Source of the DNA: Leucosporidium creatinivorum
Lineage: Eukaryota; Basidiomycota; Microbotryomycetes; Leucosporidiales; Leucosporidiaceae
Assembly: GCA_001600635.1 (NCBI GenBank)
Contig: BCKL01000002.1
Span: 1,243,425-1,307,424, forward strand
Length of the DNA stretch: 64,000 nt
Direction of reading: 5' to 3'
The notes under the pieces were generated by a model. It had not been told where the DNA came from, made no database searches, and was given only the letters and a program-made list of their open reading frames with translations. The translations under genes were made by a program, and so were the position numbers. Shown here one piece after another: positions 26,754 through 55,690 of the stretch; positions within the stretch are counted from its first letter, which is position 1, and the number at the start of each line of letters is the position of its first letter.

Positions 26754-27031
26754 GGTGGTGAAGTGAGAGGGGGGAAGGGGAAGGGGGGGAGAGAGCAAAG
26801 AGTGGACGAGTGAGGTGAAGGAAGGAGACCATCCCTCGCTTTCTCTTCGTCCATTTTGCTCTTGCTGCTCGCTGCACGTTCCACATCTCCTGTTCGCGCG
26901 ACCCCGCATCAAGGAAATCACTATTTGCGGAAAGCAGGCCAGGCCTCGTCGATGTGGGAAATCTCGCGTTCGCCCTCCCTCCCGCCTTCGTACGGAGGCA
27001 GTACACTGACTTTCGGCGTCGACACGGATTC
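26662..27031 (-). repeat. Direct repeat, intact-locus copy (PHO84 5' end)
   Basis: Partner of 23123-23492, same orientation. It covers codons 1 to about 30 of the phosphate transporter, its leader and about 280 bases upstream. The match stops abruptly on both sides, in the first exon at one end and after CGGATTC at the other. Confidence 0.88.
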
Positions 27032-34485: not shown

Positions 34486-35132
34486 ATGACCTTCACAGAA
34501 ACCGCCAACAAGACTGTAGCTCATCTCGCTCGTTGGTCCCTGCCCCTCTAACTCTCTGTACCTCAAGCTCATCCCGACTCTCTTCGCAGATCCCGGCCAC
34601 GCCGACGAGACCCATCCCATCGAGCACCCTGCCCACCACGGCGCTTCGCTCGAGCATCACGATGAGGATGAGCATTGGCTGAGTACGTGTGGACTCGAGC
34701 TGCAGATGAAATCGAGTTGTTAGCTGACCCTCTCATCGAGCAGAGCGGGTCACCACCTCCGAAGAGACGACCAAGCTTATTCAGTCTCAGGGTAATTGCG
34801 GAGTTGGGATGGAGGAGGGATTGCAGGGAAAGTAAGTCTTTATCTCCTTCTCCTCCGCTATACTGGAGCTAATCACCGTCGGCGTTGCAGAGCCATCGCT
34901 CAGCAGGAGCGAGTCGCCGAGCGCTCTCGTCTTCGCCATGAGGGTCTCCTCGAGGTTTGTCTGCTCCCTTTAGACCCTTTCCACCACTTTCCTAACACTC
35001 TATTCCTGCCTTCACCAGCCCCATCAGACGCATGAGGCCGTCATTAACTTTGACGACGAGCACCGAGCGGTGGCCGACGGCCGAGACGTGCACTTTGACA
35101 ACCACGGAGAGGGAGCTGGTCGTTCGGTTTGA
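34486..35132 (+). CDS. Small His/Glu-rich orphan protein
   Basis: I do not recognise this protein. Four introns give a continuous frame of roughly 135 codons: MTFTETANKTVAHLARHPGH, a His/Glu-rich patch (PAHHGASLEHHDEDEHWL), then KRVTTSEETTKLIQSQGNCG, a charged helix (KAIAQQERVAERSRLRHEG) and THEAVINFDDEHRAVADGRD, ending GEGAGRSV with TGA at 35130-35132. Frame continuity through all four junctions, with GCTAAC/CTGAC boxes, is the main evidence. There is no signal peptide or membrane segment. The last two exons also occur, degraded, in the second inverted-repeat arm (about 55472-55690), so the arm boundary cuts inside this gene. It may be a small acidic, metal-binding or chaperone-like protein, but no function is assigned. 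Confidence 0.6.
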
Positions 35133-36045
35133 GGTGGAGCAGCTTCCTTCTAGTCTCAGCACATATCTCTAGCCCGCATCATCATTACATCTTGTACTAT
35201 CTGTGATCAATTGACAACGCATTCTGTGCCCCTCGGAGCCGAGTGTTTTCGGAGGTAGCGTCGTCTCATGTAGCGAGCCGGTGGCTCGACATCCTGAGCC
35301 GGGATCATATCGAGTTACTGGTGAGCGAGCTCTGCCGTCGACAGCAAGCCGAGGCTTTCGCATGCGCGCCGAGAAGTGCTTCGGCGACGACTCCCTTTGC
35401 CACGTCCCTCAAGAGCCAAACGCTGCGCTCAGGCTACTGCTGCGCCATTGAACCTTCTTGTCACCTCGAGCTCAAAGTGCTTGCAACGCTTGAGCGCCAT
35501 TTGCTGNTTGTGGGAAAGAGGAAGAGGGAGGAAGGCAACGCCGAAGGGGAGGAGGGGAGGAAGCCGATGATCAGCTCGGTCCGGTTGCATCCCGCTCCTT
35601 CGCCGGTGACGACGTGTCTGTTAGATTGTAACGCACCATCTTGTACTTGCACACGGTGCACTCGAGACGCAGGACGACCTTCTTGGTGGTCTTGGCCTTC
35701 TTGTGGAAGACGGGCTTGGTCTGTCCTCCGTATCCCGACGCTCGTACAAGTTCGAGAGCTCGCTTGCTGCTCTGTAGCGCACGATAGCTACTTTACCGTC
35801 TCCATGTGCCCGTTTGCTCTTCACCACAAGCAGAGCAGAGCACGAGCATCTCTACTTCGGCAGCCTTCGCTTCGGCCGAGTCGCTTTACTGCCTCCCCGA
35901 CCCAGTTCTGCTCGCCTCAAGCTTGATCAGTGCCGGGAGAGAGTGCTGCAGGATCTATCGAGCTCCTAGCTACCTCAATACACTCCACGAACAACTCGTG
36001 TTGCAAAGCAAAGCTAGGGAGATCGGGCCGAGCTCGCCCACTCGG
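35133..36045. other. Stretch between orphan gene and F-box-like gene, within arm A
   Basis: About 900 bases holding the eL42 fragment (35454-35737, minus strand) and otherwise no recognisable gene. The whole stretch is mirrored at about 54561-55470. Confidence 0.55.
35454..35737 (-). pseudogene. Truncated ribosomal protein eL42 copy (arm A)
   Basis: On the minus strand it encodes [19 protein letters not shown] and the following [14 protein letters not shown], an intron, then [12 protein letters not shown], copied from exons 2 and 3 of the eL42 gene at 51971-52638. The first exon (start codon and first zinc-ligand pair) and the last exons are missing. A G is lost after FEL, which shifts the frame. 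The intervening intron is retained, so it arose at the DNA level or from unspliced RNA. Its edges fall at the exon 2 acceptor and the exon 3 donor. Confidence 0.88.
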
Positions 36046-37278
36046 TCAAAAGCAGGGAGCGTCAGGCGACTTGATCTCGACCGCCGTACCAAACAATTGA
36101 AGCTCGTCTTGCGCTCGCTCCATCTCCCCCACTAGCCAGCCAGGATCACTGTCGCCCCAGCTCCCCTCCCACCAGGGCTCAATCGCCAGCGTCTCCACTC
36201 GACGGATCCTCAACACCTCCCTGCACACATCCCAGGGGAAGACACCCTCCCAGAAGTGATCCCTGACGTCGCCATTGGGCTTACCCTCTCTTCCAAAGTC
36301 CTGCTTGACGGCAACGTACAGCTCGCGAAGAGGTTGGACATTGCTCGGCGCTGGCTGGGGCGAGGAGGCGAGGGGAAGGGCGGGGCGGGAGACTTGGAGG
36401 CTTTCGAGCTTGACGCCCTCAGCGAGGAACTCGGCGAGGAGAGAGAAGGGAAGACCCTCCTCGGCTGCACTGGCGTTGAGGCGGAGGATACGAAGCTGAG
36501 GGACGATGGCGCGGAGGAAGTCGACGGCGGGCTCCGAGTCGGGGGGCTCGGGGCTGTAGTTGAAAATGGAGGGATCGAAGCTCAGCTCCTCGAGCATAGG
36601 GGGACGCACTGGGCCAGCGGGCGCTCTTGTACGAGCCAGACTCGGAGAAAGGTGAGTTTCTTGAGGTGACGGAACTCGGGGTAGGGGAAGGGGAGTTCGA
36701 GATGGGTGAGGGACAGGTGGGTGAGATTGTAGCCAGCTGCAAGGTCGTTGAAGGAAGATGAGCTCGAGTGCAGCTAGCTCGGAGGCTCGATACTCACCGT
36801 CCTGCTGTCGAAGACCAGCTGCCAGTCGAGACGGCCAGTCCATCGAGCTTTCGACGGCACACAAAGCCAGCGCTATCGGCGTCTTGAGCTCCGCCAGCTT
36901 GACCACAGCACGCTCATGGAGCGGTCCCTTGACCTCGTCGCTCTCCCCATCATCCCTGTCCTCGTCGACCTCGTCCGACTCCGCCAACTCGCACTCGACT
37001 CGGCGCACCCCACTTGCCCTCCCTCCTCGCTGAAGCTTGGCAAGGATCATCTGGGCGCCTTCTTCATCCTTGTACGAAAGTTTGAGCGTTCTGTAGCCGA
37101 ACGGCTCGGCGTACTGGCGCCACTTGCGGCTGAGGCGGGAGAGGTAGAGAGCCGTCGCGGGCTGCTCGTCGAAGAGGTCGGGCGAGAAGTCGTCTCGTCG
37201 GTGCTCGGGGCGGAGAGCGTAGTTGATGATGTAGGGTAGTAGGTCCTCGGGAAGAGCTACTGCTGGATCCTCAAACAT
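36046..37278 (-). CDS. F-box-like protein, copy A (doubtful integrity)
   Basis: The N-terminus MFEDPAVALPEDLLPYIINY, followed by LYLSRLSRKWRQYAEPF, looks like an F-box-like motif, expected to link a substrate-binding C-terminus to SCF ubiquitin ligases. The rest resembles a leucine-rich-repeat-like scaffold (LRAIVPQLRILRLNASAAEE, LESLQVSRPALPL, VETLAIEPWWEG). The frame is open for 410 codons, but the middle is odd. A 61-base intron-like segment (GTGAGT...TTGCAG, about 36740-36800), if spliced, moves translation into the frame shared with copy B, and a 2-base insertion at about 36596 then leads to an early stop. If the intron is retained, the tail is back in frame, at the cost of about 70 foreign residues. 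Whether this makes a working protein cannot be judged here. Confidence 0.6.
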   Translation of the reverse strand: MFEDPAVALPEDLLPYIINYALRPEHRRDDFSPDLFDEQPATALYLSRLSRKWRQYAEPFGYRTLKLSYKDEEGAQMILAKLQRGGRASGVRRVECELAESDEVDEDRDDGESDEVKGPLHERAVVKLAELKTPIALALCAVESSMDWPSRLAAGLRQQDGEYRASELAALELIFLQRPCSWLQSHPPVPHPSRTPLPLPRVPSPQETHLSPSLARTRAPAGPVRPPMLEELSFDPSIFNYSPEPPDSEPAVDFLRAIVPQLRILRLNASAAEEGLPFSLLAEFLAEGVKLESLQVSRPALPLASSPQPAPSNVQPLRELYVAVKQDFGREGKPNGDVRDHFWEGVFPWDVCREVLRIRRVETLAIEPWWEGSWGDSDPGWLVGEMERAQDELQLFGTAVEIKSPDAPCF

Positions 37279-38162
37279 CGGTCCAGCTGGGTCGGCCTCG
37301 AAGGGTCGAGGGAGTGAAGCGGTGAGAGGGAAGCTGGTGCGCTGGGGAGGTGAAGGGATGAGCTGAGTCGACTACAGGGTGCAGGAAGCTACTCACCATG
37401 CTGTGCTACTAGCTGTGCAAAAGCTGCCGAGTCCTCGATAGTCGAAGAGAAGAGACGAAGAAGCGAGCGAGATGAGAGCGGGAAGGCAAGAGGCGCTCAG
37501 CTTGAATCGACTCGAGTTGGCCGACTGCGAGCTCGAGGGCCCGAGCGTCGAGGTACTAGCAGACGCCTGAGCTAAGTTCAAGATGAGAAAGGAAGAGTCT
37601 CTGTTGGCACTGCGACCCTCTTCAACCTCCGCTGCCGTGCAGAAGGGTGGACAGACCGAGCGGACGGAGAGCTCGGCGATGACCTTCTCGCTCAGCGTCC
37701 CGGCCGCAGTGCCGTTCTGCGCTCGATGGTCGGTTGCCTTGGTCTCTGAATCTTGCATTGAGGGCGCTCCCAGTGGCTCCGATCCCGATGGCTTTGAGCA
37801 GAGCGCTGACCGAGGTTCGACAGCGAGCCCCGAAGGGCCAAGCCGCTTTGCAAGGGGCGGTGGGTAGCTGTAAGAGATCCTTGCGGCACCTGAAGAGTAT
37901 TTACAGTGCATTTTCGGCCAGCAAGTCGATGGGCGAGTGGTCTCACAGCCTACAGACCCTCTTCTCCAAGCTCGGCGATGTGCTTTACTAACTTCGGCGC
38001 TCGAGTACAGGAAGCGAAGCGCCGAAAGCCATCAGAAGAGGATACTTTAGGCTAAGACAGCATGCCTCGCTGCCTGTAGCTCAATTCGACTGCAGAAAGG
38101 AGGCCTTGACTTTGGCGAAGGCAAGATGCAATTTCTCGTTTCGACCTCGTCAAGAAGCTCGC
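37279..38162. other. Intergenic stretch at the inner edge of arm A
   Basis: The first 280 bases belong to the inverted repeat. They resemble the F-box gene leader, with a possible 5' UTR intron starting at an ATG/GTGAGT. The remainder, to 38162, shows no recognisable gene and should hold the promoter of the following plus-strand gene. Confidence 0.45.
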
Positions 38163-40354
38163 ATGTCGGCTCGACGACTCGCCCGGCAGGGACTATTGCT
38201 AGCAGAGCACCAGCAGCCCTTAGCCTCGACTTCATCACTACCAGCATGCCCCGCCTGCCGCCGCTCTACGTCGACCGCTCTGCCTTTCGCCGCCGCTTCC
38301 TCCCGAGCACACGACTCTCCTTCGACTCAGCAGCGCGCTAGCTCGTGGGCAGCAATCTCAAGAGCAGGCCAAGCCATCTTCAACCCTCCCACCGCTTCTG
38401 CTACCCCTACATCGACCAACGCTCGCGAAACCAGCGCCGTGGAACTCGAAGGAGCAGCAGCGGAGCTCGTCGCCGAGTGCAAGCTCAAGCGGCCGAGCGG
38501 ACAGCGTACATGGGCGCTATTCCAGCAAGTAGACCTCGAAGGCAACACGGAAGCCATCCCCCTCGTCACCCTCCACTCGGTCCTCGCTGCCATCCATACC
38601 CCTTCGCCCAAGCACCACGACCAGCTCCAAGTGACCCAGTCGACCTCGGCCGCTCGCGCCTACAACAGCAAAATCGACCTCATCAGGCTTCGCATCCGCC
38701 AAGCAGGAGGAACCACGTCCAAGGGCGACCTCAACGCCCTCCTTCGGCAATACCACGAGCTGGGCTACGCGCCGGGCGCGAGCAAAGTCTGGGACGAGAT
38801 GATGGAGATGGGCTACCTCCCGCGGCCAGGCAACTGCAAGACGTTCTTCTCGACCCTGCTTCGGTGGGTCGAGATGCACGAGCGAGGAGGAGGACGAACC
38901 GTCGCCAAACTCGCGGCTCAGCCTTTGGTCGCCAAGGCCGTAACGATGCTGGAGGAGCTCAAGGGCGATTCGCTACGCACCAACGCTGTACTGGATCCCT
39001 TCTTCGAGATCGCCGTACGAGCCCGAGATACTCAGGTCTTCTTCGTCGCGATGAAGGCGGTCTACGGCTTCGACGTCAACTACCCCGGCGCCGATGTAGA
39101 CGTTTCGCCGTCGGTCAGGGCCTCGCAGAAGGTCATGGGAGAGAAGGAGGTGTGCTGGGTGCTGGAGATGCTCGGCGAGGCGGACGACCTCAGTCGGATG
39201 ATGGCGGTATTCGAGGTCTTCGACAACCCGACCTCGGCGCACTCGGCGACCTCCTTCTTCGGCCCCTCCTTCACCACCTCAACCTCTGCCGACTCGAGCT
39301 CCTCCTCCTCCGCCGACCTTCCTTCTCCCCGGCCTCACCCCATCGGCACTCGCGCCTTCTCCTACATGGTTCAAACCGCCGGTCGCCTCGGGAATGGAGC
39401 CCTCGTTCGTCACTACTTTGACCAGCTCCGCGACCGCTGGGCATACGAGTCGGATGCTCGTATCGCTCGCCTCGAGGCAGTAGTGCAGGCCGCTACCCCC
39501 GCACCAGTATCGGAGGACGGCTTCTTCGATGTCGACCCACCTGGTTCGTCTCTCTCGATCTACCCTCGCGCAAACCCTCCGCTAACTTCTCTCCTTCCGT
39601 AGCAGCACCCACTCCCCACTTCTCAGCACCTCTCGGCATGCCTACCACTCCCACCGAGAAGCCCTACGGCGTTCCCTCGACCCTCGTCCGCGACATGATT
39701 AAAGCCGCCAAGCATCACTCGGACTACGCCACCTCGCGCTTCGTCCGGATGCGCACCCGCTGGCTCCTCCAAACCATGGGCGACCAAGCGACTCGCATCT
39801 CCGCCGTCCTGGACAAGCTCGAGCCCACCGCTTCCTCCTCCTCGTCCACTCCTCCTCGCTCCCTCATCCTCCTCACCCACGAGATCGACCTCCTCAACTT
39901 CCATCAATACCAACTCCTCTCGATGCACACCCTCGTCAAAGCCGACTCTAACGTGATCCACGCATACTCGTACTTCCGGCACCGAGCCCAAGGTCTTCGA
40001 GTCCGTCTCGCTCGGTTGGAGGAGTCACAGCACGTGGCGACGGCAGCTAGCAAGCGAGCGGCCATGGAGTTGAGGCCGAGGGTGAGGAGGTACGAGAAGA
40101 GCGTCCTCCTTTCTCAGATTTTGGTGGTCAAGCAGCGGTTGGTCAGGCTGTATAAGATGGGAAGGGCGAGGAAGGGGAGGGTCGAGTTTGATAGGTGGCA
40201 TGGCAAGTTGGCGAGGTTGAGGGCGAAGGCCAATGGGCAGGGATTGAAGGAGAGTGAGGAGGAGGAGGTCGAGGGAGCGGAGGAGTTGTTCGTGGCTGGT
40301 GGAGCGATGGGAACGACTGTGCCGCCGACGCCGACACCAGCGACAGCAGTGTAG
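38163..40354 (+). CDS. Mitochondrial-type helical-repeat (PPR-like) protein
   Basis: Large two-exon gene. The start MSARRLARQGLLLAEHQQ is Arg-rich and without acidic residues, as expected of a mitochondrial presequence. Helical repeats follow: DLNALLRQYHELGYAPGASK, VWDEMMEMGYLPRPGNCKTF, DPFFEIAVRARDTQVFFVAM, TRAFSYMVQTAGRLGNGALV. These have the spacing of pentatricopeptide-type helical pairs. An intron (donor GTTCGT, acceptor CGTAG near 39602) joins DVDPP to AAPTPHFSAP. The second exon is a Lys/Arg-rich helical domain (ARLEESQHVATAASKRAAME). It ends at TAG 40352-40354. In fungi such proteins usually stabilise or translate mitochondrial mRNAs; the target is unknown. I cannot name an orthologue. 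Confidence 0.75.
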
Positions 40355-40662
40355 CATTGTATAGAGGGAAGAAAAGGATCTCTTATGATCCAGCTTATCA
40401 TATCTCTCTAGGCTCGTCTGGCGAGTTGCGAACGAGAGCTTGGCGCTGCTTCTCGGCCTCTCTTCTCTCGTTCTCTTTCGCCGACGGTGCGACTTCGGGA
40501 ATCAAGCCTCCCGAATTGCATCTTTGTGAATCAACGCACTCCAGTCGCCCTTTCCTGCGACCGACGACTGATCCCATCCCAAGGGTCCATTTTGCTGTCC
40601 CGAGAATTTTGAGGCGCTCGCTCCGTCTATGATTGCTGTTGCTCTTAAGGGTGATGAGAGGC
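40355..40662. other. Short convergent intergenic stretch
   Basis: About 300 bases between two genes that point at each other. It should contain both 3' UTRs. On the minus strand a frame stays open from the C9-methyltransferase last exon to 40398 if its final intron is not spliced. I prefer the spliced form. Confidence 0.5.
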
Positions 40663-42780
40663 TTAGACGACGAGGCTGTGGAAGGCGGAGGCCGGTTAGC
40701 GGGAGGACGAAGGATCGAGGAAGGTGAGAGAGCGCACGAAGGGTTTCCACGGTCGAAGAAGAGGGAGGTGTGCGAGGGGATGGCCTGCGCGGAACGAGGG
40801 GAGGGTCAGTGGAGCGCGAGGGGCGGTAATGCAGAGTTTCCGAGCTCACGTCAATGCGGGGGTAGGCGTTGAGGTTCTTGTGAGCCGAGATCTGGAAGAT
40901 GGAGGCTCCTCCCTGGCGCGAGGCGATGACGGCCGAGGCGAGGAAGTAGAGCCAGATCTATAGCGATGGTCCGAGTCAGTTCGGAAGGGCAGAGAGGCGG
41001 ATGACATGACGTACGCGGTACCACTTCTCGCCGTACTTGGCCTTGACTTTCTCCTGGTTGAGGATCCAGTTCTCGTACCAGCGGTGAAGGGTGGCGGCGT
41101 CTGTGGTAAAGCGGAATAGCGTCAGTGTAGCTCGAATGTACAAGCTCGATGGATCAACTCACAGTGAACACCGAGGACATCGACCGACTTGATCTCGAAG
41201 CCGGCCTTCTCGAGGCGGTGAATGTGCCAGTTGAGGGCGCAAGAGGCGTCGGCTCCGGGGAAGACGTACTTGTTCATAAAGAGACCCCTGCAAGTCAACG
41301 AGAGTTGTCAGCGCGAGGCCGTCGAGCTAGGCGAACCGAGTTCAAACTCACCAGATGAGGTCCTCGTACTGCCAGGTAGGGCGGAATCCAGAAATTTGGT
41401 AGACGAGGATACCATCATCATCGAGGAGGTCGTAGACTTGGTTGAGGAACGAGCTGTAGCGGCGGATACCGACGTGCTGAGGGAGGGGCCGAGCCGTCAG
41501 CCGAACCGTCCGGCGAGCACGACAACAGACAGAAACTCACCTCGCCCATCTCGAGGGATACAATCTTAGTGAACTTCTTGTCGGTACCGATCTCGCGGTA
41601 GTCCTTGCAGAGGATGCGAGCCTTGTGCGCCTCAACGCCATTCTCGGCGATCCTCTTGTTTCCGAAGGCCGTCTGGTTCTTGCCGAGGGTGACACCGGTG
41701 ACATCGCAGTCAAAGTTCTTGGCAGCGTACGCGGCGAGAGTTCCCCATCCGCACCCAATGTCGAGGAGCGTGTCGGTCGGCTTGAGTTCGAGCTTGTGGC
41801 AGACGAGGGCGAGCTTGTTGTCCTGGAGCTCCTCGAGGGTCTCCTTGCGGTTGATGTCGTTGATGACTCCTCCAGTGTAGACCATTCGGGTTCCGAGGAA
41901 CCTGTTCGAGAGTCGAAGGTCAGCCAACGCCGACTGAGGAGAAATATGGGGAAGGGGCTCACCACTCGTAGAAGTCGTCTCCTCGGTCGTAGTGGTCGCG
42001 GACCTGCTCCTCGTCCTGGGAGGGCGAGTGCCAGACGACGTCGGGGATGAGGTTGGTGAAGACGTATTTGAGCAGGGTGAAGGTCATCTCGAACGTCGCC
42101 CAGTCGTGACGGTACTCGAGAAGCTCGAGCATGTCGCCTGTAGGGCAAAGAAACGCGGGTCAGCGATTGGCCTAGACGCGTAACTCAACCTCTCCTTTCT
42201 CCGGCCCAGCTTCACTGTCGCGCTCGGCCCCTCCATCTCGACCGACCAGCGCGTGAAAGGGATTCGGCGAGCGCACGCACCCTTGAGCTCAATCTTGTTC
42301 TCGAAGTAGCTGTCGTAGAAGAGCTGGATGGGGATCTTCTTGTGGCCGTTGTACACTGCCTTGAGCTCGGGGTCGGTGATGGTCATGTAGTCCTCGATGG
42401 GCTTGCCCGGTCGAAGTCCATAGTCGCGAACGTTGCCGCCAATCTTGGACATGATGTTCCAGTACAGGACGGTGACGGGCAGGCCGGTGAGGAGGAGGAA
42501 CAAGGTGTACCATGTCTTGAAGCTGAAGTAGAAGGTGGGCAGAATCTTTGTGAGGAGCCACGGGACGACGACGACGATGCCGGCGAGGTGGTAGTTGGAG
42601 AAGGATCCCGACGATTCAAAGGGCATGGGCGCGTTGGGGATGGCGGCGCGGTTGGTGACCCTAACGCCGACCTTGGGGTCGTAGGTAGCGCTGTAGCCGT
42701 ACAGCGGCGACGAGGAGACGAGGTGTTAGCTGCGCGGCGCGTGTCGCTCGCTTTGAGCTGCTGTAAAGTACTCACGCCAT
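40663..42780 (-). CDS. Sphingolipid C9-methyltransferase
   Basis: Membrane-bound SAM-dependent enzyme related to cyclopropane-fatty-acid synthases that adds the C9 methyl branch to the sphingoid base of fungal glucosylceramide. Exon 1 is MA, joined at a CTACAG acceptor to ATYDPKVGVRVTNRAAIPNA. Two membrane segments follow (AGIVVVVPWLLTKILPTF and WYTLFLLLTGLPVTVLYW). The SAM-binding motif is LLDIGCGWGTLAAYAAKNF, followed by GVTLGKNQTAFGNKRI, KIVSLEMGEHVG and YRIWLYFLASAVIASRQGGA. Seven or more introns are present. The last one (donor GTGCGC, GCTAAC box, acceptor CCACAG) gives a short end RGNPSLVV and TAA at 40663-40665. Without that splice the frame would run about 90 codons further, to 40398. 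Function is known for the family; no missing key residue is seen. Confidence 0.92.
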
Positions 42781-42999
42781 GGCTGCTAGGTGGTAGAGAG
42801 GCGAGGGAGCTGTAGTGAGGTACACGTGTGAGCTTTTGGGCTACAGCAGAACGAAGCAGGAGCGAGAGCAGCTCACGAGTCGACAAGGCAAGAGAACAAC
42901 CCTTGATTCTCGCTAAGTCGCGGGACGACCGGCAGCAGCTGGGTCGAGCTGAGGGCTTCGCTAATTCCCTTCTGCCCCTTCGGGGCCCTCGCACGACAG

Positions 43000-43247
43000 A
43001 TCCGCTTCTTCTTCGAAGGTGGAGCATTCTCAGACGGCAAGCTCAACCGGCCGAAGGAGCTGGCTATCAACAAGGTGATTTTCCGTCGTCGATTTGCCGA
43101 CTAGCAGGTTCGGCCGAGCTGACTCGTTCATCGCGCAGATCGGACACTCGCTACACACGGAAGACGATGCGTTCAAAGACTTGACTCTGCATAACGAAGA
43201 CATTCAGAATCTCGCTAAGGAGCTTGAATTCCACCAGGATCCTAGGG
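43000..43247 (+). pseudogene. Relic of a phytanoyl-CoA dioxygenase-like gene
   Basis: Two exon-like pieces in the plus direction. 43000-43074 encodes IRFFFEGGAFSDGKLNRPKE and LAINK. An intron (43075-43138, CTGAC box) is followed by 43139-43247, encoding IGHSLHTEDDAFKDLTLHN and continuing EDIQNLAKELEFHQDPRG. This matches the N-terminal half of PHYHD1-type iron/2-oxoglutarate dioxygenases (IRFFFE...INKIGHALH). A possible third acceptor at about 43318 is followed by only a few family-like residues. The start of the protein and the iron-binding HxD and distal His regions are absent, so no enzyme can be made. Splice sites still look intact, suggesting fairly recent loss or a deletion during rearrangement. 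Confidence 0.7.
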
Positions 43248-43254
43248 GTGAGTC

Positions 43255-43284
43255 CTGCTCGGCGCTGCTCGGCGCTGCTCGGCG
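43255..43284. repeat. 10-base tandem repeat, three copies
   Basis: CTGCTCGGCG occurs three times head to tail without a mismatch, directly after the last exon-like piece of the dioxygenase relic. Confidence 0.92.
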
Positions 43285-43376
43285 CTGGCTCACTCGCTGG
43301 CTCTGCTGGCCAGCCGTGCGATCACAGTGCCACTCCTCGTCGCGCTGCACACATCTATTTCACTCTACAATAAGCA

Positions 43377-43940
43377 CTACACCCACACCACCGCCCACGC
43401 CACCACACCAGGCCAAGCGACCTCAGTGACCTGCCCTGCCGTGCTCGCTACAATCTCGCCGACCGCTGTTCCTCCCAACCACCTCCCCAGCACGTTTGGC
43501 GCCCACATTACCCTCCCTACTGCTTGCCGAAGCATCTTGACCACTGGTCGAAGGACCCAGCGCCCGACTGGACCGCAGCGGTTGAGGAAGCTCTCGAGTC
43601 GAGCGAGAGAGGATGAGGAGGAGGAAGGGTGCCGAGTGGCGTAGCGACCTGAGGTACGGGGATCGATAGCCTCAGCATTTCTCCTCGAGTTGATGGACGA
43701 CTGGACGTGGCGCCAAAGTTTGGGGAGGAGGGAGAGGGTGACGAGCGCAAAAAGGGGGAGGTAGACGTGTGGCCAGATGGAGAGTTGGTCGGGGAGGGTG
43801 CAGTTGGTTTGGGTGAAGGTGGCGGGGGAGGGGTCGAGGGAGGAGGGGGAGGGAGAGGAGGAGTAGTAGGCGCCCAGGCCTTCCTCCGCCTTGATTTTCT
43901 GCGGTCGGTTCAACTTCGTCTTTCTCGCCTGCACTCGCAC
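43377..43940 (-). CDS. Unresolved open frame with membrane-like segments
   Basis: A frame of about 188 codons divergent from deoxyhypusine synthase. It contains one clear hydrophobic segment (HVYLPLFALVTLSLLPKLW) and a hydrophobic C-terminus (VAWPGVVAWAVVWV). No ATG lies near its beginning, so it would need an upstream exon, which I cannot find within the 30 bases before the neighbour's start. GC-rich DNA makes long chance frames. I list it only because of the membrane-like segments and because it fills an otherwise empty gap. Confidence 0.25.
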   Translation of the reverse strand: MRVQARKTKLNRPQKIKAEEGLGAYYSSSPSPSSLDPSPATFTQTNCTLPDQLSIWPHVYLPLFALVTLSLLPKLWRHVQSSINSRRNAEAIDPRTSGRYATRHPSSSSSSLARLESFLNRCGPVGRWVLRPVVKMLRQAVGRVMWAPNVLGRWLGGTAVGEIVASTAGQVTEVAWPGVVAWAVVWV

Positions 43941-43974
43941 CTCGGCTCAAGCTACAGCACAGCACTATTACACC

Positions 43975-45591
<1,617 letters not shown>

Positions 45592-45780
45592 GGAGTTAGT
45601 AGAGAGTTGGAAGGGTCGGCGCGAGGGTCACTCAGAGTCAGCAGTAGCTTGTAGCAACGTGTATCATTCCCATCGCTCTTCCGCCTGCGCCAGCTTCGCA
45701 GCTCGCTCCTCCCTCGCCGACGAGAAACGAGAAGATAAAGGAATCTATCGCATAACAATATAGACGCTCAAACGTGCTAT

Positions 45781-48700
45781 CTACTCGCCCTTATCCGACC
45801 CAGCAGAGTACATAGACCCCGGCCTCTTGGCCGCAAACTCCCTGATCTCCTCCAACTGCCTCTCGGCGCCCTTGTACACCTCGTCGCCCTCAATGGGGAG
45901 CAGGCCCTCGATCTTGGTGGTGGACTTCTTGATCTGCTTGGCTTCGGCTTTGGTGCTGTGCCGCGAGAGGATCTCGATGGCGTTGTCGAGGTTGATGTAG
46001 TCTGGCGGGCGGGGGAGGTCAGCTTTTCGGCGAGTCGACGGAGAGGAGAGAGGTGGCTCACCGGTCAATGCTCGCCTAGGCTGCACCTGGAGAGCGTGCT
46101 TGGCGTCGAGGCTGGCGTCCAGGACGGCAGAGTGAGCTCCCTCGGAGAGCGAGACTCGGACAGAGAGCTCCTTCGGTCCATCGCCCTTGCTTCGCTCGTA
46201 GACCTCGAATCTGTGGGGCACGGTCGGAGTGTAGAGGTAAGTCAGCATGGTAGTAGTGACGAAATGAGAGAGGGCGGGACGGCTTCGGCGCGTGGACGAT
46301 GCGCGCCGAGCAGGCAGAAGGGTAGGGAACGAGCTACTCACGCAATGTAGCTCATGTAGTCGAGTTCGGGAATGTTGATCATAGTGATGGGAAGCTCGGA
46401 GAGGGTCACCAGATTGACGAGGGTGTGGATGTGCGACTCTTTGGTGAAGTAGAAGTCGGCCGAGGCATGAGACTCATCCTTCGCCGCCTTGAGGTTGCCG
46501 ACGATCTGCTCGAGCAGCGGCAGAGAGGTGAGGAGCCCAATTTCCTCCTTCTCCGAGCGTTCGATACCGTACTCCTGGGGAGCGACTGTGCGAAGAATCG
46601 GCGAGGTCAGCGCCGAGGTCGCGCGACCGAGGTAACGGCCGGGAAGCCAACTCACTGAGGTCGAAGAGCAGCTTGGCACGCTTATACAGCTCGCGGAGCT
46701 TGCGAGGAGCACCAGTCTCTTCCTTGTCGCTCAATGTCGAGCGGCTGTCGATGGAAGACGGGCGGCTCGTCGAGTTGCCGAAGATGGTCTCAAGGAAAAC
46801 ACGGCTGCGATGGAAAGGAACCGAGTCAGTGATGCGTCTCGAGCTCCGAAGCTATTGGGAAACCTACTTGTGCAGAGCATCGTACTTGAGCGAGTCGTAG
46901 AGCTCGGAGGCGCGCGAAGGGTCGAACTTCTCGAGCTCGACGTCGCACCAGTCGGAGAAGAGGGCCTCCCATCGCTCTGTAGAGAGGTCAAGATATCAAC
47001 ACATGCGTCTGTACCACTACAACGATGAATATTACTGACCGCGGAAGAGGTAAGGATACTCTCCACAGCACCACCGCGTCTGGATCTTCTCGACGGCCAT
47101 TGTCTCCCAGTTGTGGTGCATGACGCTCCGGTGGTACTTCATGAGCTCGATAGTCTCCTTGACGACCTCGAATGGCTCCTGCGTGAGAGGCCAGGCGAAC
47201 TCGGGGCGGATGTGAAGCCCGGGACGGCAGAGCGACTTGAGCTTCTTCTTGACCTTCTCGATCTGTGGATGTAGAAAAGGGGTGAGCGGAGATCTAGAGT
47301 GAGGCAGTGAGACGACGCACCTCCTCCTTGGCGGCGTTGGAGTCGTCGAGCAGATCCTTGCGGATGATGAGCTGGTGAGTTGTCGACTCGGGGCCACTCT
47401 TGTCGTCGAGGAAGGTGCTGCGAAGACGGCGGAGTCAGGTTGGGATCAAGACGAGGGAGATAGGACCAGCAACGTACGTGCTGAAGATCTCGGAGGTGGC
47501 TACAACGCGACGCCTGTAGGAAGAAGAGTCAGCGAGAAAGCCGACAGCGAGATGAGCAGAGTGGCTTACTCGGACGAGCTGTAGACGTTGGTGTGGTCGA
47601 AGAGCGACTTGTTCATGATGAGGAAGTCTGAGAGGGAAGCGGTCAGCTGGTTATCGCCATCGAGGCAGATCGCGAAGCTTACCCTTGCGCATGTTCTCGG
47701 CGATGTCGCGAGCTTGGTAGCGAGCAGCATGGGTGAACTAGGGACGAAGGAGGTCAGTCTCGATACATCTCAGAAACAGTGAACGGCACGCACCTCTCCT
47801 CCCCACTTGACGACGACCGCGACCTTCTCGCACTCGCCCTCAGCGTTGAAGGCGGGCTTGAGCTGCGCCTTGGTTCCGTTGGCGGCCTTCTTCTTCTCAA
47901 TGATCTTCTTGAGCTGCTCGAGCTGCTCGATGTCGCTTCCAGGGATGGTAGCGGCCTCCTCAGCGGCATCGGCGATGTACTGGAGCTGGTCGGGGTCTCG
48001 GAGGATGATCTCGGTGGTTCGGCCTTGGAGAAGGGTTATGAACGGCTTGGACCAGGCGTCCTTGCCCTTGAAGTTGAACTTGAGCTTGCCTATAGGCACA
48101 TGGATAAGCGAGCTGCAACGAGCGCGAAGGAGGAGCGCGACGAACACTTGGGGGTGCGATCGCCGTGACGAGCAACGCAGATGGTCTTCTTCAGCATCCA
48201 TGACTTCTCGCGAGGCGACTCGGTGCCCGAGGTGACGCTCTTGGGAATGGAGGGCATCTTGCGCTCGCAGAACTTGCCGAGAATCTCGGCGCACTTGTCG
48301 CTGTGAGAGGACACGAGGTCAGCTTCGTTCTAGGGGAGGAGGTCCCGAACTCACTAGTAGAAGTCGTTTCCCTTGACGAACGACCAGCCGTTCACGTCGA
48401 TGACATAGCTCTTGCCATTTGCACGCAGCAGGTCAAAGCCACAGATGTTCTGCTTGAAGGCGACCGAAATGTCCCTTGCCATCTTCTTCTCGGCATCGCT
48501 GAGCTGGCAGATGAAGCGGATCTCTTTGCCCTCGGTGTTGCGGCGGACAACTCCGTCCACCACAGGCGACTTGCGAGTCTCGGCGTGGACAAAGTTGGGG
48601 CCGAGGGTGTAGACCTTGATATCCTCCGCGTTCTCGACGTCGACGAACTGCTCGTAGACGTAGGAAGCGTCGGTACGAGGAGTGACCATGCCGGGCTCCA

Positions 48701-49657
48701 TGGCGGACGATTGGTTGCCGACCTGTGGGTAAGAAAGATGAGCACAGCATCGACCGAGCGAGTCCAGTGAGAACCGACCTTGCGGAACAACCTCCTCGCT
48801 CCTCCTCCCTTCTTCTTGGCGAAGTAGATGTTGACGTTGTGGTCCTCACCACTGACGGGCTTCTCGACGAAAGGCTTGGCCATCGACTTGCCGTCAATCA
48901 CGATGGTGTCGTCGTCCTTCATCGAGAACTCCGAGGTTGGGCGAGGCTTGTCGACGCGGATGCCGATGTTCTGCTGGATCTGCTCGGCGATGCTGCGGTC
49001 GATCTGGGGTCCTCCATCACGGTTGCACTCGAGTCGCTTAGGCGTGGGCACGCCAATCTTGTCGAGGATCTGGAGCACGACTCGGCGGTCCCAGAACACC
49101 TTCTGGAGGGGGAGGTCGTTCACGCAGACGGGCTTGCGAAGCTCGACGTAGCCGACTGGGTAATGTGTTGTGTCAGCCATGTCTCTAGAACCCGAGAGTG
49201 GAGCAAACGCACTGGCTTTGTCGATGGGGAAGCCGTCCGAGAAGAAGGAAATGAGGAAGTCACAGACAGGCCAATTCTCGATGTCTGATGATGTGCAGGG
49301 CGTCAGTAAAGTGTTCTACGTATAGCCAGACGTGAGGACCTACCCTCGTCGAGAATGACCTTGTCGCCGAAGACCGTAATCTCGAACTTGCCCGTCGCGA
49401 GCAGCCTCGAGAGGATGTTGCGCATGGGCCGAGAGCGAGCCTTGCGATCCATGGCGGCGACACCTGTCTGAGCGAAACTGATTTAGCCTTCAGAACTCCA
49501 GCTCGGCCATCCTTGCCCAGCAGAAACCCGCCCCGAGCCTCCGCAATGATCCAACTCGCAGACGCAGGAAAGACGACGTACCGAGACGGATCAAAGCCTC
49601 GGCGGGTGCCCCAGGAGCGGGAGAAGGTGACGATTGAGGGACTGGAGTGGTGGCCAT
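45781..49657 (-). CDS. VIP1: VIP1/Asp1 diphosphoinositol-polyphosphate kinase (PPIP5K)
   Basis: Bifunctional enzyme making (kinase) and removing (phosphatase) the 1-position pyrophosphate of inositol pyrophosphates, signals in phosphate and stress control. The start is [10 protein letters not shown]; then [83 protein letters not shown] and [20 protein letters not shown] make up the ATP-grasp kinase domain. The second half is the histidine-acid-phosphatase-like domain, with [40 protein letters not shown] and [10 protein letters not shown]. About fourteen short introns are present. The C-terminus is [10 protein letters not shown] before TAG at 45781-45783. Both domains have their signature residues. 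The divergent neighbour starts only 285 bases away. Confidence 0.95.
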
Positions 49658-49942
49658 GATGCTAGGATCACTCTGTTGGGGCAGAAGAGCTGCAGAGGAT
49701 GTTGACCCTGTGAAGCTACTTTGACGCTTAGCGAGAGGCGGTAGGCTGAGTTGAGCGATCCTGGTAGCTCAGAGCGATGCGAGCTATTGTATGTAGTGAA
49801 ACGAGTCGAGTCGACTCAGGAGCAGCGAGCGGGCACAGGAAGACCAAGGCAAGGAGTTCGCTTCTCGCGCTCCCTGCCTTTCGCTCCACACGTGCCTCGA
49901 ATTCGCCAGCTCGCCGCCGAGTCGTCCTGTAGCGCTGTAGGG
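49658..49942. promoter_or_regulatory. Divergent promoter, VIP1 and TRAPPC2L
   Basis: 285 bases between the two start codons, without an open frame of interest. Both promoters must lie here. Confidence 0.5.
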
Positions 49943-50665
49943 ATGGACAGCCCACGACTGAGCACCTCTGCACCAGCAACGCGCTCCCCTTCAGCTTCCG
50001 CTCTTCGCATCCTCGCCATCGCCGTCCTTGGGAAGCACGGTAATCCTCTCTTCCTGCAGTCCTACTCGGCTCGCAGGGGTGGTCAGGCGGATCTCAAATG
50101 GCAGTATGCAGCTCACACGGCGCTCGACTTTTTCGAGGAACGAGGTGAGTCTCCAGCCGGGCTGACGAGCCCCAGGCGCGTCGACGCTGACCAGTGTCTT
50201 GTCGTGCAGAGCTGCCAGCAGCAAAGACCATCGACTCGTACTTGGGACTGCTTTACGCCATGGAGGATTACGCTGTGTGAGCTGGGTTTGTGCTAGTGCC
50301 GTCTCGGACTCGAGAGCTGACCTCCGCTCGTGCCCCCCTTCACAGCTACGGCTACCAGTCCAACACTCGCATCAAGTTCGTCCTGGTCCTCGCATTAGCA
50401 GATGCTGTCGTGCGCGATATCGACGTCAAGACTGTCAGTTTGCTGCGCGGCCCAGTCCTCGCCTCGGCTGACCTCCCTACCATCGCAGATCTTCCGCGCC
50501 ATCCACAACGCCTACATCTCGCACATCTCGAACCCATTCACCTCTGCCGAGACCGACAACCCCTCCGCCCTCTCTGCACCGATACGGAGCCGCAAGTTCG
50601 CCAAGGCGATGGACGACGTCGCAGGAGGGCCTCCGCCGAAGGACGATGGCGAGGAGGCCCAGTAG
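49943..50665 (+). CDS. TRAPP complex subunit 2-like protein (TRAPPC2L/Tca17)
   Basis: Sedlin-family small subunit of the TRAPP tethering complex at the Golgi. After a short Ser/Pro-rich start (MDSPRLSTSAPATRSPS) come RILAIAVLGKHGNPLFLQSY, KWQYAAHTALDFFEERAAA, YLGLLYAMEDYAVYGYQSNT, RIKFVLVLALADAVVRDIDV and TIFRAIHNAYISHISNPF. This is the full longin-type fold of the family, and the YLGLLYxxEDYxVYGY block is diagnostic for TRAPPC2L. The C-terminal ~40 residues (KAMDDVAGGPPPKDDGEEAQ) are an acidic tail. Four introns; one restores the V in AVYGY. TAG is at 50663-50665. Confidence 0.93.
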
Positions 50666-51970
50666 GCGCATTCAGCATCAGCAAGCAGTTCAACAATGTT
50701 GTATTCCACTCGTTCTTCGATGTCGCCGGCGCGAAGTGCGATTTTTGGCCCTCCTGCTCTCTCTTGCTCCCCTCGCTTGCGGTCCTCTCCTGCTCTCCTC
50801 CTTGACCTCACCTACGACCTCCACCCACCCCGTCTTGCATCGCATCATTCGGACTTCGACTCGCTGGTTACTCGCATAACCGCGAGCTCATCTACGTCTT
50901 GAAGGATCGGAGCTCAAGCTTACTCGCTTCGGCGCAGGAAGCTTGGTTGACGAAGAGCAGAACTCGACAGCACCGTCCGATGGCGGACTTTCGCAAGTCC
51001 CCAGTTTGTTCGACAGTTACGCGGTGTACATTTGTGCTGTAGTCTCGTGTTATAGATGGAATGCTAAGGTCCTCTTGAAGTGCTCGGCGACGGGTTCGGC
51101 GAAGTGTGAAACGGCCAGCGAGAGCTGCAGTAAAAGCGAGAAACTCTTACAAGCAATCGCGCTATTGTGATTGCTGAGAGCTGTCGGGCTATACCTCCAA
51201 TGGCGGAAGGTGAAAGGATGTCACCCCTAAGTGCGAGAGGGCGGGCGCTCGACTCAGCGCGCAGGCTGCCACCTCTCTTCTTTCGGCTGTCTCCATTCTC
51301 TAGGTCAGCTCACGTCTCATACAGCGCGCGGTACATATCGCCAGCACACCCCTACACCCTCCCATCGACCCTCCGTCCAACTCCCGTCCTCGCCGCTCGA
51401 GGGAAGCTCCGAATTTTCAGCGGGCGTCGCTGGAGGTCCTTAGGCCGTCTCGAGGAGACGCTGCAGCAGGGGGAAGCGCAGGAGATGGATCGAGAGGGAT
51501 TGGAGGAAGACCGGAGCCGCTGCAGGCTGTCAGAGGGGAGGACTATGCTCGAGGAGGCGAGCACCGGAGGCAGCACACTCGACTCGCTCCGACGGGGGAA
51601 GTGCTGCCAGTTTGGGACGAGGTGCAGGGTACAGCAACGCAGGGCGATGCGGTCTACTTGCTGGACTGCAGGGCCGAATTGCTGTCCCTGTAGCTGAGTC
51701 GGCAGGGTCGGATTCGAATCGACAGGCCTCGCGCGACCTTGGAACCGTGGCTGACCGTTGTTCTCCCTCTCACCAGGTCTCCAACAAGGTACACCTCACT
51801 TCCTACGACTTTCACGCACCCCTACACGGCACCCTCGGCGCTCCCACTCCCCTACATCTTGCTCCAAGCCGCCCTCTCCTGCCCCTCGACCCTCCGACGC
51901 GACCTGCCGATCTACCCCAGCAACAGCCGACTAACCACCCTCTTCCCCCTCCCCCCTTCGCATCATACAG
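50666..51970. other. Intergenic region upstream of eL42, with coding-like scraps
   Basis: About 1.3 kb. The last part should carry the eL42 promoter and, because a CATACAG acceptor ends exactly before the ATG, a 5' UTR intron. At about 51470-51690 a plus-strand frame reads [20 protein letters not shown] then [15 protein letters not shown] and stops. It looks like the end of a protein, but its upstream part is broken by stops and I cannot identify it. No tRNA was found. Confidence 0.45.
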
Positions 51971-52638
51971 ATGGTTAACGTGCCCAAGACCCGTAGGACG
52001 TACTGCAAGGGAAAGGCGTGCCGCAAGCACACCCCCCACAAGGTCACCCAGTACAAGACCGGAAAGGCTTCGCTCTTCGCTCAGGGAAAGCGTCGTTACG
52101 ACCGAAAGCAGTCCGGTGCGTTTCGTGAGATGGTCGGAGTGCGCAGATGGAGCTAATGCGCGTCGTCGGCTTGCAGGATACGGAGGACAGACCAAGCCCG
52201 TCTTCCACAAGAAGGCCAAGACCACCAAGAAGGTCGTCCTGCGTCTCGAGTGCACCGTGTGCAAGTACAAGATGGTGCGTTACAATCTAACAGACACGTC
52301 GTCACCGTCGAAGGAGCGGGATGAAACTGGACCGAGCTGATCATCGGCTTCCTCCCATCCTCCCCTTCGGCGTTGCCTTCCTCTTTCTTCCTCTTTCCCA
52401 CAATCAGCAAATGGCGCTCAAGCGCTGCAAGCACTTTGAGCTCGGAGGTGACAAGAAGGTACATACCCCCGGCCAGTTGAACTTAGGTGAACGCCGAGCC
52501 GAAGTAGCTGACTTTCCTCCCTTTCTGCCGCTTCCTACCGCATTCAGACCAAGGGTGTGTCTCTCATCATCACCTTCTACATACTGAGCTACCCGCTGAC
52601 CTACCCATCACCCTACAGGTGCCGCTCTCGTCTTCTAA
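51971..52638 (+). CDS. RPL42: 60S ribosomal protein eL42 (L36a/L44 family)
   Basis: Zinc-binding protein of the large ribosomal subunit, E-site side. The spliced product is 106 residues, the family's usual length: [20 protein letters not shown], then [60 protein letters not shown] and GAALVF. The Cys pairs C12/C17 and CTVC/KRC are present. Residue 56 is Pro, the drug-sensitive form at the position whose change to Gln gives cycloheximide resistance in yeasts. Introns interrupt after RKQS, after KYKM, after GDKK and within the last Gly codon. The ATG follows directly on a CAG acceptor, so a leader intron is likely. TAA is at 52636-52638. Its exons 2-3 were copied into both inverted-repeat arms. 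Confidence 0.95.
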
Positions 52639-53353
52639 GCGCGTCGATTTGTTGGATATGTGCGGAGACGTGCGAAGGAGGGGCTGGGGGGCTGTATGCC
52701 CAAGATGTCATGCAGGACCTCTGTTTCTCGGATGTATCTCGGAACTGGCTACGAGGGAGAGAGAGAGCGGGCTGGGCGATTTCGCAAGAGCGAGGGTCAG
52801 CGTGAAGGTCGAGCTCGGCGGTTCTCCGGCAGTCACTCTTGGGCTCTGTTCTGCGTGGCATGGTCTCTGCGCCAGCTTGGGATATAGTTCGGCTGCTCGA
52901 TCCTCAAGCTGCTAGCGGTTAGCGATAGAGGCGAGGCGTTCGGCCGTATCGTCGCCGAGCTCTCCTTCCGCTCGGTCTGCTCACTCCTCTGCTGGTCAGC
53001 AAAGGTCTGAGAAGATTTGTCTTTGAAGATAGGCCTCCCTTCCTGCTCACTCGTAGATCAACCCAAGCATCTGCTGGCCACTCGACGCTCGACCTTCGAG
53101 CTCGCAGTCGGCCAACTCGAGTCGATTCGAGCACAGCGCCTCTTGTCTTCCCGCTCTCATCTCGCTCGCTTCTTCGTCTCTTCTCTTCGACTATCGAGGA
53201 CTCGGCAGCTTTTGCACAGCTAGTAGTACAGCATGGTGAGTAGCTTCCTGCACCCTGTAGTCGACTCAGCTCATCCCTTCACCTCCCCAGCGCACCAGCT
53301 TCCCTCTCACCGCTTGACTCCCTCGACCCTTCGAGGCCGACCCAGCTGGACCG
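52639..53353. other. Intergenic stretch between eL42 and arm B F-box gene
   Basis: About 700 bases. The outer part (to about 53080) shows no recognisable gene. From about 53080 on it is the inner edge of inverted-repeat arm B, including an ATG/GTGAGT that may start a leader intron of the F-box-like gene. Confidence 0.45.
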
Positions 53354-54560
53354 ATGTTCGAGGATCCAGCAGTAGCTCTTCCCGAGGACCTACTTCCCTA
53401 CATCATCAACTACGCTCTCCGCCCTGAGCACCGACGCGACGACTTCTCGCCCGACCTCTTCGACGAGCAGCGCAGGACAGCGCTCTACCTCTCCCGCCTC
53501 AGCCGCAAGTGGCGCCAGTACGCCGAGCCGTTCGTCTACAGAGTACTTCAGCTCTCGTATCAGGATGACGAAGGCGCCCACATGATTCTTGCCAAGCTCG
53601 AGCGCGGATGGGAGGCGACTGAGGTTCGGCGCTTGGAGTGCGAGCTCTCCGGCGAGGCCGACGACGAGGAAGAGGATGAGCTTGTCGCGGGACTCTTTGA
53701 TAGGCTGGTGAAGGTGTGTACTCCGAGCCACAAGGCGTGTACTGTGAAGGAGCTTCATCTGCGCCATGTGAAGGAGTTCACGACGTTGCCTCCGGAGCTC
53801 GAGGCCAGCCTTCGTAAGTGGGGCGCCAGAACGCAGCCGAGCACCACTACCCTCGACCTCGGCCTCAACAGCACACTACAACATCACCCAGCTCTCCCTC
53901 ACCCATCTCAAACTCCCCTTTCCCTAACCCGAGTTCCGTCACCTCAAGAAACTCACCCTTCTCCGAGTCTGGCTCGTACAAGAGCGCCCGCTGGCCCAAT
54001 GCTTCCCTGCACTCGAGGAGCTTAGCTTCGATCCCTCCGTTTTCAACTACAGCCCCGAGCCCCCCGACTCGGAGCCCGCCGTCGACTTCCTCCGCGCCAT
54101 CGTCCCTCAGCTTCGTATCCTCCGCCTCAACGCCAGTGCAGCCGAGGAGGGTCTCCCCTTCTCTCTCCTCGCCGAGTTCCTCGCTCAGGGCGTCAAGCTC
54201 GAAAGCCTCCAAGTCTCCCGCCCCGCCCTTCCCCTCGCCTCCTCGCCCCAGCCAGCGCCGAGCAATGTCCAACCTCTTCGCGAGCTGTACGTTGCCGTCA
54301 AGCAGGACTTTGGAAGAGAGGGTAAGCCCAATGGCGACGTCAGGGATCACTTCTGGGAGGGTGTCTTCCCCTGGGATGTGTGCAGGGAGGTGTTGAGGAT
54401 CCGTCGAGTGGAGACGCTGGCGATTGAGCCCTGGTGGGAGGGGAGCTGGGGCGACAGTGATCCTGGCTGGCTAGTGGGGGAGATGGAGCGAGCGCAAGAC
54501 GAGCTTCAATTGTTTGGTACGGCGGCTGAGATCAAGTCGCCTGACGCTCCCTGCTTTTGA
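53354..54560 (+). pseudogene. F-box-like gene, copy B, interrupted
   Basis: Paralogue of copy A at 36046-37278: the same N-terminus MFEDPAVALPEDLLPYIINY and a near-identical C-terminal half (VDFLRAIVPQLRILRLNASA to ELQLFGTAAEIKSPDAPCF, TGA at 54558-54560). The middle differs (ELSGEADDEEEDELVAGLFD, VKELHLRHVKEFTTLPPELE). An intron (GTAAGT...CAACAG, 58 bases, about 53815-53872) joins EASL to PHYNITQLSLTHLKLPFP. The next codon is TAA (near 53918), where copy A has TAC (Tyr). After that stop the same frame is open to the end. So one base change breaks an otherwise intact gene, unless readthrough or sequencing error is involved. Confidence 0.75.
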
Positions 54561-54869
54561 CCGAGTGGGCGAGCTCGGCCCAAGCTCCCTAGCTTTGCTT
54601 TGCAACAAGAGTTGTTCGTGGAGTGTATTGAGGTAGCTAGGAGCTCGATAGATCCTGCAGCACTCTCTCCCGGCACTGATCAAGCCTGAGGCGAGCAGAA
54701 GTGGCTCGGGGAGGCAGTAAAGCGACTCGGCCGAAGCGAAGGCTGCGGAAGTAGAGATGCTCGTGCTCTGCTCTGCTCGCGGCGAAGAGCAAGCGGGCAC
54801 ATGGAGACGGTAAAGTNGCTATCGTGCNCNACAGAGCAGCAAGCGAGCTCTCGAACTTGTACGAGCGTC

Positions 54870-55154
54870 GGGATACGGAGGACAGACCAAGCCCGTCTTC
54901 CACAAGAAGGCCAAGACCACCAAGAAGGTCGTCCTGCGTCTCGAGTGCACCGTGTGCAAGTACAAGATGGTGCGTTACAATCTAACAGACACGTCGTCAC
55001 CGGCGAAGGAGCGGGATGCAACCGGACCGAGCTGATCATCGGCTTCCTCCCCTCCTCCCCTTCGGCGTTGCCTTCCTCCCTCTTCCTCTTTCCCACAANC
55101 AGCAAATGGCGCTCAAGCGTTGCAAGCACTTTGAGCTCGAGGTGACAAGAAGGT
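54870..55154 (+). pseudogene. Truncated ribosomal protein eL42 copy (arm B)
   Basis: Exons 2 and 3 of eL42 with the intron between them, the same fragment as in arm A in inverted orientation. It begins at GGATACGGAGG (exon 2 edge) and ends in GACAAGAAGGT (exon 3 edge plus donor GT). It shares with the arm A copy the lost G after TTTGAGCTC and the C-to-T change in CGTTGC, differences absent from the true gene at 51971-52638. Both arm copies therefore descend from one event older than the arm duplication. Confidence 0.88.
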
Positions 55155-55471
55155 CCAATGGCGCAGCAGTAGCCTGAGCGCAGCGTTTGGCTCTTGAGGG
55201 ACGTCGCAAAGGGAGTCGTCGCCGAAGCACTTCTCGGCGCGCATGCGAAAGCCTCGGCTTGCTGTCGACGGCAGAGTTCGCTCACCAGTAGCTCGATATG
55301 ATCCTGGCTCAACATGACGATCCACCAGCTCACTACATGAGGCGACGCTTACGCTCCGGAAACGCTCGGCTCCGAGGGGCACTGAATTGGTTGTCAATTG
55401 ATCACAAATGGTACAAGGTGCAATGATGATGCGGACTAGAGATATGTGCTGAGACGAGAAGCTGCTCCACC

Positions 55472-55690
55472 CTAAACCGAACGACCAGCTCCCTCTCCAT
55501 GGTTGTCGAACTGCACGTATCGGCCGTCGGCCACCGCTCGGTGCTCGTCGTCAAAGTTGATGACGGCCTCATGCGTCTGATGGGGCTGTTGATGGCAGAA
55601 GTCGAGTTAGCAATATGGTAGAGAGGTCTGGAGGGAGCAGACAAACCTCGAGAAGGCCCTCATGGCGAAGATGGGAACGCTCGGCGAAGA
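55472..55690 (-). pseudogene. Copy of the 3' exons of the orphan gene (arm B)
   Basis: Minus-strand match to exons 4-5 of the gene at 34486-35132: HQTHEAVINFDDEHRAVADG, then R-Y-V-Q-FDNHGEGAGRSV and TAG at 55472-55474. The upstream exons with the start codon are missing, replaced by phosphopantetheinyl transferase sequence. Small changes (D/Y, H/Q) separate the copies. Confidence 0.75.

Follow-up and report, generated by a model that had tools for sequence, protein, structure and literature searches.

How did a block of single-copy genes come to lie between two inverted copies of one 2.7-kb segment? The question is raised by a 64,000-nucleotide stretch of contig C2 (BCKL01000002.1) of Leucosporidium creatinivorum, C2:1243425-1307424, called here the window; positions are those of the window unless another reference is given. 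We compared the window with itself and with its own assembly, a 27.7-Mb draft of 63 contigs, and genomic copy counts are lower bounds. The inverted repeat of the window (IR1) was then considered together with a similar pair (IR2) that lies just beyond it on the same contig. We propose, with about even confidence for and against, that the arms of IR1 are the scar of an old, small intrachromosomal inversion with staggered breaks.

Extent and copy number of the inverted repeat

Self-BLAST of the window revealed two blocks of inverted similarity, one of 1821 columns at 95.0% identity (34914-36732 versus 55687-53876) and one of 733 columns at 86.2% (36959-37682 versus 53676-52949), both with E=0. 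With the alignment of the arms, they define arm A at 34914..37682 on the forward strand and its inverted copy, arm B, at 52949..55687 on the reverse strand, separated by a loop of 15.3 kb (37683..52948). IR1 is the sole large inverted repeat that the self-comparison found in the window. A first-pass annotation, made from the letters alone, had placed such arms at 34915-37556 and 53080-55690. The arms are real in the assembled sequence and slightly longer: the outer limits stand, the inner ones (37556 and 53080) fall about 130 bp short, and a weaker block of 58 bp (81%) lies further inward. From the outer end inward, each arm contains the last exons and the stop codon of a small orphan gene (gene G), intergenic DNA, a fragment of eL42 with its intron, and a gene resembling leucine-rich-repeat (LRR) genes.

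As far as the genome search sees, the duplicated DNA of both IR1 and IR2 is single-copy DNA and not a dispersed repeat. No DNA of the IR1 arms was found outside the window in the 27.7-Mb draft, and the IR2 arm returned two copies only, both at IR2. Transposon arms or a transposon-mediated inversion were rejected on these copy numbers. A Pfam scan of three open reading frames (ORFs) from the arms found no transposase family among them.

Gene tails at the arm boundaries

The outer edge of arm A runs through gene G. A model drawn by eye from the reading frames places this gene at 34486..35132 on the forward strand, where it is complete and crosses the edge; arm B has only its truncated tail (55472..55687, reverse strand), in which three residues have changed, two of them in the last exon and one in the exon before it. 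The outer end of arm B is 81 bp from an ORF that the first-pass annotation called a PPTase, which we use as a label only. The inner edges of both arms are intergenic and no gene crosses them, so that of the old junctions of IR1 the asymmetry is seen at the outer side, at gene G.

The eL42 fragments offer a second landmark. Each is an exon-intron-exon piece found by self-BLAST, at 35449..35735 on the reverse strand in arm A and at 54871..55157 on the forward strand in arm B, and the two have the same letters over 284 bases, one N included. Both match a 288-column segment (52176-52463) of a parent gene at 96.5%, from which they differ by eight substitutions, one gap and the N. The parent (51971..52638, forward strand; model by eye, with Pfam Ribosomal_L44 at E 1.4e-15 on one ORF) is the sole full-length eL42 that the genome search returned. 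It sits in the loop, 0.3 kb from arm B, whereas the arm A fragment is 16.4 kb away. This placement points to the inner side of arm B as the old neighbour of the arm. Two features bear out the earlier proposal that this was a rearrangement of DNA and not a tidy duplication of a gene: the tail of gene G is whole at arm A but cut short at arm B, and the eL42 copy has kept its intron.

Clearer boundaries are found at IR2, which begins 625 bp beyond the window and 8.9 kb from IR1. Its arms of 1.4 kb (64625-66025 and 71800-73197, window coordinates) are inverted, 96.6% identical, and separated by a loop of 5.8 kb. A UBE2Q-type E2 gene (Pfam UQ_con, E 8e-10; PDB 1zuo, E 1e-21; 2qgx, 'E2 Q1', E 1.2e-20) extends, in a model drawn by eye, from 63900 over the outer edge of arm A, so that its last exons lie in this arm. 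Arm B has only the last exons of this gene, with D changed to G where 1zuo has E, I changed to T where 1zuo has I, and two changes of R to C outside the 1zuo alignment. The opposite holds at the inner edge, where, in a model by eye, a last exon within arm B continues the frame of a convergent gene at 69.7-71.9 kb; the copy of this exon in arm A has two residue differences and lies 0.4 kb past the stop codon of a CAP59-type mannosyltransferase ORF (Pfam, E 3.9e-30). The assignment of this exon to the convergent gene has weak backing from a paralogue on contig C15, which aligns across the arm B junction (query residues 25-73 of 77 at E 0.016, and 96-224 of 228 at E 0.047). With the tail left off, it was not returned at E<=10, a soft silence since one candidate was scored.

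Judged from these gene models, the gene tails at IR2 appear to be truncated reciprocally, the E2 gene being complete only at the outer side of arm A and the convergent gene only at the inner side of arm B. An inverted copy-paste in one step does not give the layout assembled at IR2, because the original copy would have kept both old junctions, which here appear to be divided between the arms; an inversion with staggered breaks does give it. IR1 fits the inversion model of IR2, and its inner junction, to judge from the full-length eL42 gene close to arm B, may be placed likewise. The first-pass annotation had noted that the layout permits inversion of the loop. Since the reciprocal truncation at IR2 fits an inversion that has already happened, loop inversion is better viewed as what probably produced the arms, and not just as something that the layout allows.

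Proposed origin of the arms

According to our proposal, the two DNA strands would have been cut about 2.7 kb apart at one breakpoint. Fill-in and end-joining would then have placed the 2.7-kb segment on either side of the inverted loop, one copy in each orientation. The ancestral order would have been gene G, arm, eL42, and onward to the gene at 38 kb and the 'PPTase' side. Gene conversion at various later times would have moved sequence between the arms, making some tracts near-identical while the ends and the middle stayed diverged. We infer three parts of this scheme: the inverted state of the loop with respect to the ancestor, the stagger of the breaks, and the origin of the identical tracts in conversion rather than in assembly.

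Identity along the arms

The arms differ at 288 of 2721 aligned columns, a mean identity of 89.4%, and identity per 100 columns ranges from 44% to 100%. In steps of 100 columns, the outer end (34.9-35.3 kb) has 84-94%, the stretch of 35.3-36.5 kb has 93-100%, and that up to 36.7 kb has 92-96%; identity then falls to 44-60% up to 37.0 kb, returns through 76% (up to 37.1 kb) to 94-99% up to 37.5 kb, and ends at 70-72% at the inner end. The plot agrees with the earlier description of patchy similarity, in which the eL42 fragment and the tail of the 'F-box' gene are near-identical and the middle of that gene is diverged. The mismatches are clustered beyond random, since none of 2000 shuffles matched the observed longest run or the sum of run lengths, a test that addresses the clustering of mismatches and not conversion as such. 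The diverged middles lie at 36735..37000 in arm A and 53640..53880 in arm B, and neither has another match in the draft genome. A third paralogue was considered as the donor of the diverged middle, and none was found for either arm.

Gene conversion between the arms, which had been proposed from the patchiness, is plausible because the arm passes through several distinct levels of identity. The longest difference-free tracts are weaker ground, for they contain Ns at homologous positions; conversion is likely but partly confounded by assembly, and is not safe in the most identical tracts.

The difference-free runs, with Ns counted as matches, reach 361 and 339 columns in IR1 and 358 in IR2. Such lengths suit recombination between the arms, and they are among the points that speak for an origin in two steps, in which an inverted copy was first made on the far side of the loop, by repair copying, template switching or fold-back priming, and the loop was later flipped once or more by recombination between the arms. 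The same final layout would result. Precedents exist for each step in the excerpts consulted, namely inverted duplications from double-strand breaks in yeast (PMC10622511) and, among basidiomycetes, inversions of the Cryptococcus MAT locus between copies of a pheromone gene (PMC12510652). Two events are needed per locus, however, and IR2, and on weaker evidence IR1, must have been caught in the flipped state. We consider this origin unlikely.

Ns in the arms and security of the assembly

The Ns of the region are placed in a striking manner. In 314 kb of contig C2 (the window with 100 kb to its left and 150 kb to its right) there are seven Ns, all single, and all seven are inside the arms of IR1 and IR2, which make up 2.5% of that sequence. 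A naive probability of 6e-12 for this placement assumes independent Ns, and the Ns are not independent. They are at 35507, 54817, 54828, 54830 and 55099 in the window, and at 65722 and 72100 (window coordinates) beyond it. Two pairs are homologous, 35507/55099 in IR1 and 65722/72100 in IR2, and the remaining three occur in IR1 on the arm B side only. Both homologous pairs sit within the longest difference-free run of their own repeat; the run of 361 columns in IR1 (35452..35812) holds the pair 35507/55099 and the three Ns specific to arm B. The simplest reading of these letters is that one unresolved consensus was probably used for both arms at their most identical tracts. Since the Ns stand at homologous positions, neither the identity within the longest runs nor the orientation of the loop is secure, and the case shows how loci with inverted arms can mislead an assembly. 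Elsewhere in the genome, a run of 495 Ns was seen at the end of a short locus on contig C10 (L009).

The confinement of the Ns to the inverted arms, with two homologous pairs inside the longest runs, also fits a plain inverted copy-paste without any inversion, the loop having been assembled backwards because the arms were not told apart. Flipping the loop back would give one arm both intact gene tails. Against such an error stand the many differences between the arms outside the runs, from which much of each arm must have been assembled separately, and the need for the same mistake in orientation at two loci; we hold this explanation to be doubtful. That one arm, or much of one, is an assembly duplicate is very improbable, in spite of the homologous Ns and the difference-free runs of 358-361 columns, given the 288 mismatches in 2721 columns, the arm-specific differences, and the distinct outer and inner flanks.

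Weighing the proposed staggered-break inversion

Several points weigh against a staggered-break inversion as the origin of IR1. The inner edges of IR1 lie between genes, and so the reciprocity of truncation rests on IR2. There, the match to the C15 paralogue is weak, with 23-27% identity and one TGA inside the matched frame, and a better paralogue match, on contig C3 (38%, E 0.0058), stops at residue 204, before the junction, and is neutral. Identity in the middle of the arms (44-60%) is far below that of the outer end (84-94%), a gap that a single date of origin followed by conversion explains only loosely. The arms have Ns at homologous sites in the assembly on which the orientation of the loop depends. 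Finally, the inversion of either loop is deduced from the sequence of this one genome.

A broader generalization would be that small staggered-break inversions are frequent in this lineage and are a main way in which its gene order is reshuffled, that the breaks favour CGCCGAG, and that the arms keep exchanging sequence. We regard it as a long shot; its base rate comes from two scars within 40 kb, in a sample of 314 kb that was selected around the finding from a genome of 27.7 Mb. As to the word itself, CGCCGAG occurs within about 10 bp of six of the 12 boundaries of IR1, IR2 and a third pair, IR3, compared with 5.2% of 20,000 random positions. This test was chosen after the word had been sighted, the four ends of IR1 are pairwise homologous, IR3 contributes none of its four boundaries, and the word is in excess over the whole stretch. 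We therefore keep CGCCGAG at the arm ends only as a lead. The longer word TCGCCGAGC/GCTCGGCGA was seen 109 times in the 314 kb, where about 5 occurrences are expected from base composition, with no extended consensus; either this word or its CGCCGAG core is present at all four IR1 arm ends (34914, 37671, 52952 and 55679).

IR3 is a short inverted pair further along C2, beyond the window (178191-178477 and 182510-182800, window coordinates; 84.8% identical). By eye, its arms are apparently promoter regions, belonging to two genes within the 4-kb loop, and no truncated gene was seen there.

Genes of the loop and of the arms

The loop had been described as six intact housekeeping genes. Pfam profiles support four only: a CMAS methyltransferase (ORF 41421-42083), deoxyhypusine synthase (ORFs in 43870-45398), a PPIP5K/Vip1-type kinase (ORFs in 48357-49315) and eL42. 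The earlier names 'PPR-like' and 'PPTase' are putative. Among 18 ORFs of the loop that were scanned, six gave a gene-relevant match at E<=0.01 and 12 had no match at all. No mating-type family was found among these 18, the 12 without any match included.

The LRR-like gene of the arms is at 36046..37278 on the reverse strand (copy A) and at 53354..54560 on the forward strand (copy B). The name 'F-box' given to it earlier found no backing, since neither the ORF of copy A nor the first exon of copy B matched an F-box family even at E<=10 in a Pfam scan, in which weak profile matches can be missed. Copy A had no Pfam match; copy B matched MDY2_C below the cutoff (E 0.0015) and DUF6928 (E 0.098). 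When introns are modelled by eye, copy A is shifted in frame by two bases relative to copy B in the LRR part, and copy B has an in-frame stop in the same part. Read without splicing, copy A stays open for 410 codons. Copy A could be intact under another gene model, and either lesion could reflect an error of the consensus. A distant relative of both copies lies at C2:1504505; it aligns with only the first 105 residues or so, at 28% and 30% identity. Still weaker matches were observed on contigs C10 (E 0.007) and C35 (E 0.003).

Two direct duplications were observed on the same contig. One, of 390 bp, is within the window (23123-23512 and 26662-27051; 97% identical, free of Ns). The other is beyond it, at 193679-194929 and 210194-211441 in window coordinates (1253 columns, 87.6%).

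Comparison with known systems

The palindromes of the human Y chromosome are a familiar case of inverted arms that are kept alike by gene conversion. IR1 shares with them a loop flanked by inverted arms that are highly identical in tracts; it differs from them in its much lower mean identity (89.4%) and in its long diverged stretches.

A closer likeness is found in Drosophila, where staggered-break inversions leave inverted duplications of originally single-copy DNA, as described in the excerpts of PMC3355041 and PMC5080602. Inversions 2h and 2q of D. mojavensis and the O3+4 complex of D. subobscura, like IR1 and IR2, have once single-copy DNA in inverted copies at the two ends of a segment, partial gene copies included. 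The Drosophila cases were established by comparison with an un-inverted relative or arrangement, whereas IR1 and IR2 are known from one assembly, and the loops of IR1 and IR2, unlike those of Drosophila, are short, at about 15 kb and 6 kb.

In fungi, the way in which chromosomes gain the numerous small inversions by which gene order is scrambled is not well settled. Gene order in the Dothideomycetes has been reshuffled by many intrachromosomal inversions, a pattern called mesosynteny, whose exact mechanism is still unknown according to the part of PMC3516569 consulted; the breakpoints there are associated with simple repeats, whereas the ends of IR1 and IR2 carry inverted duplications of a kilobase or more. 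In the literature searched, no report of duplications from staggered-break inversions was matched with fungal terms. An excerpt of PMC12510652 comes close, in suggesting that gene remnants in Kwoniella potentially derive from duplication tracks at inversion breakpoints. Those remnants, of NDC80 and BSP3, are at the edge of the P/R a2 allele, in a mating-type locus, whereas the 18 ORFs scanned in the loop of IR1 gave no mating-type family.

The region is of value for its two cases within 40 kb, and the reciprocal truncation of gene tails for being a simple test that needs no relative. If the proposed origin is true, two adjacent loci with kilobase-long inverted duplications at their ends would make the mechanism searchable in any fungal genome. 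Breakpoint duplications from staggered breaks are established, and IR1 is probably a further example of them rather than a new kind of system.

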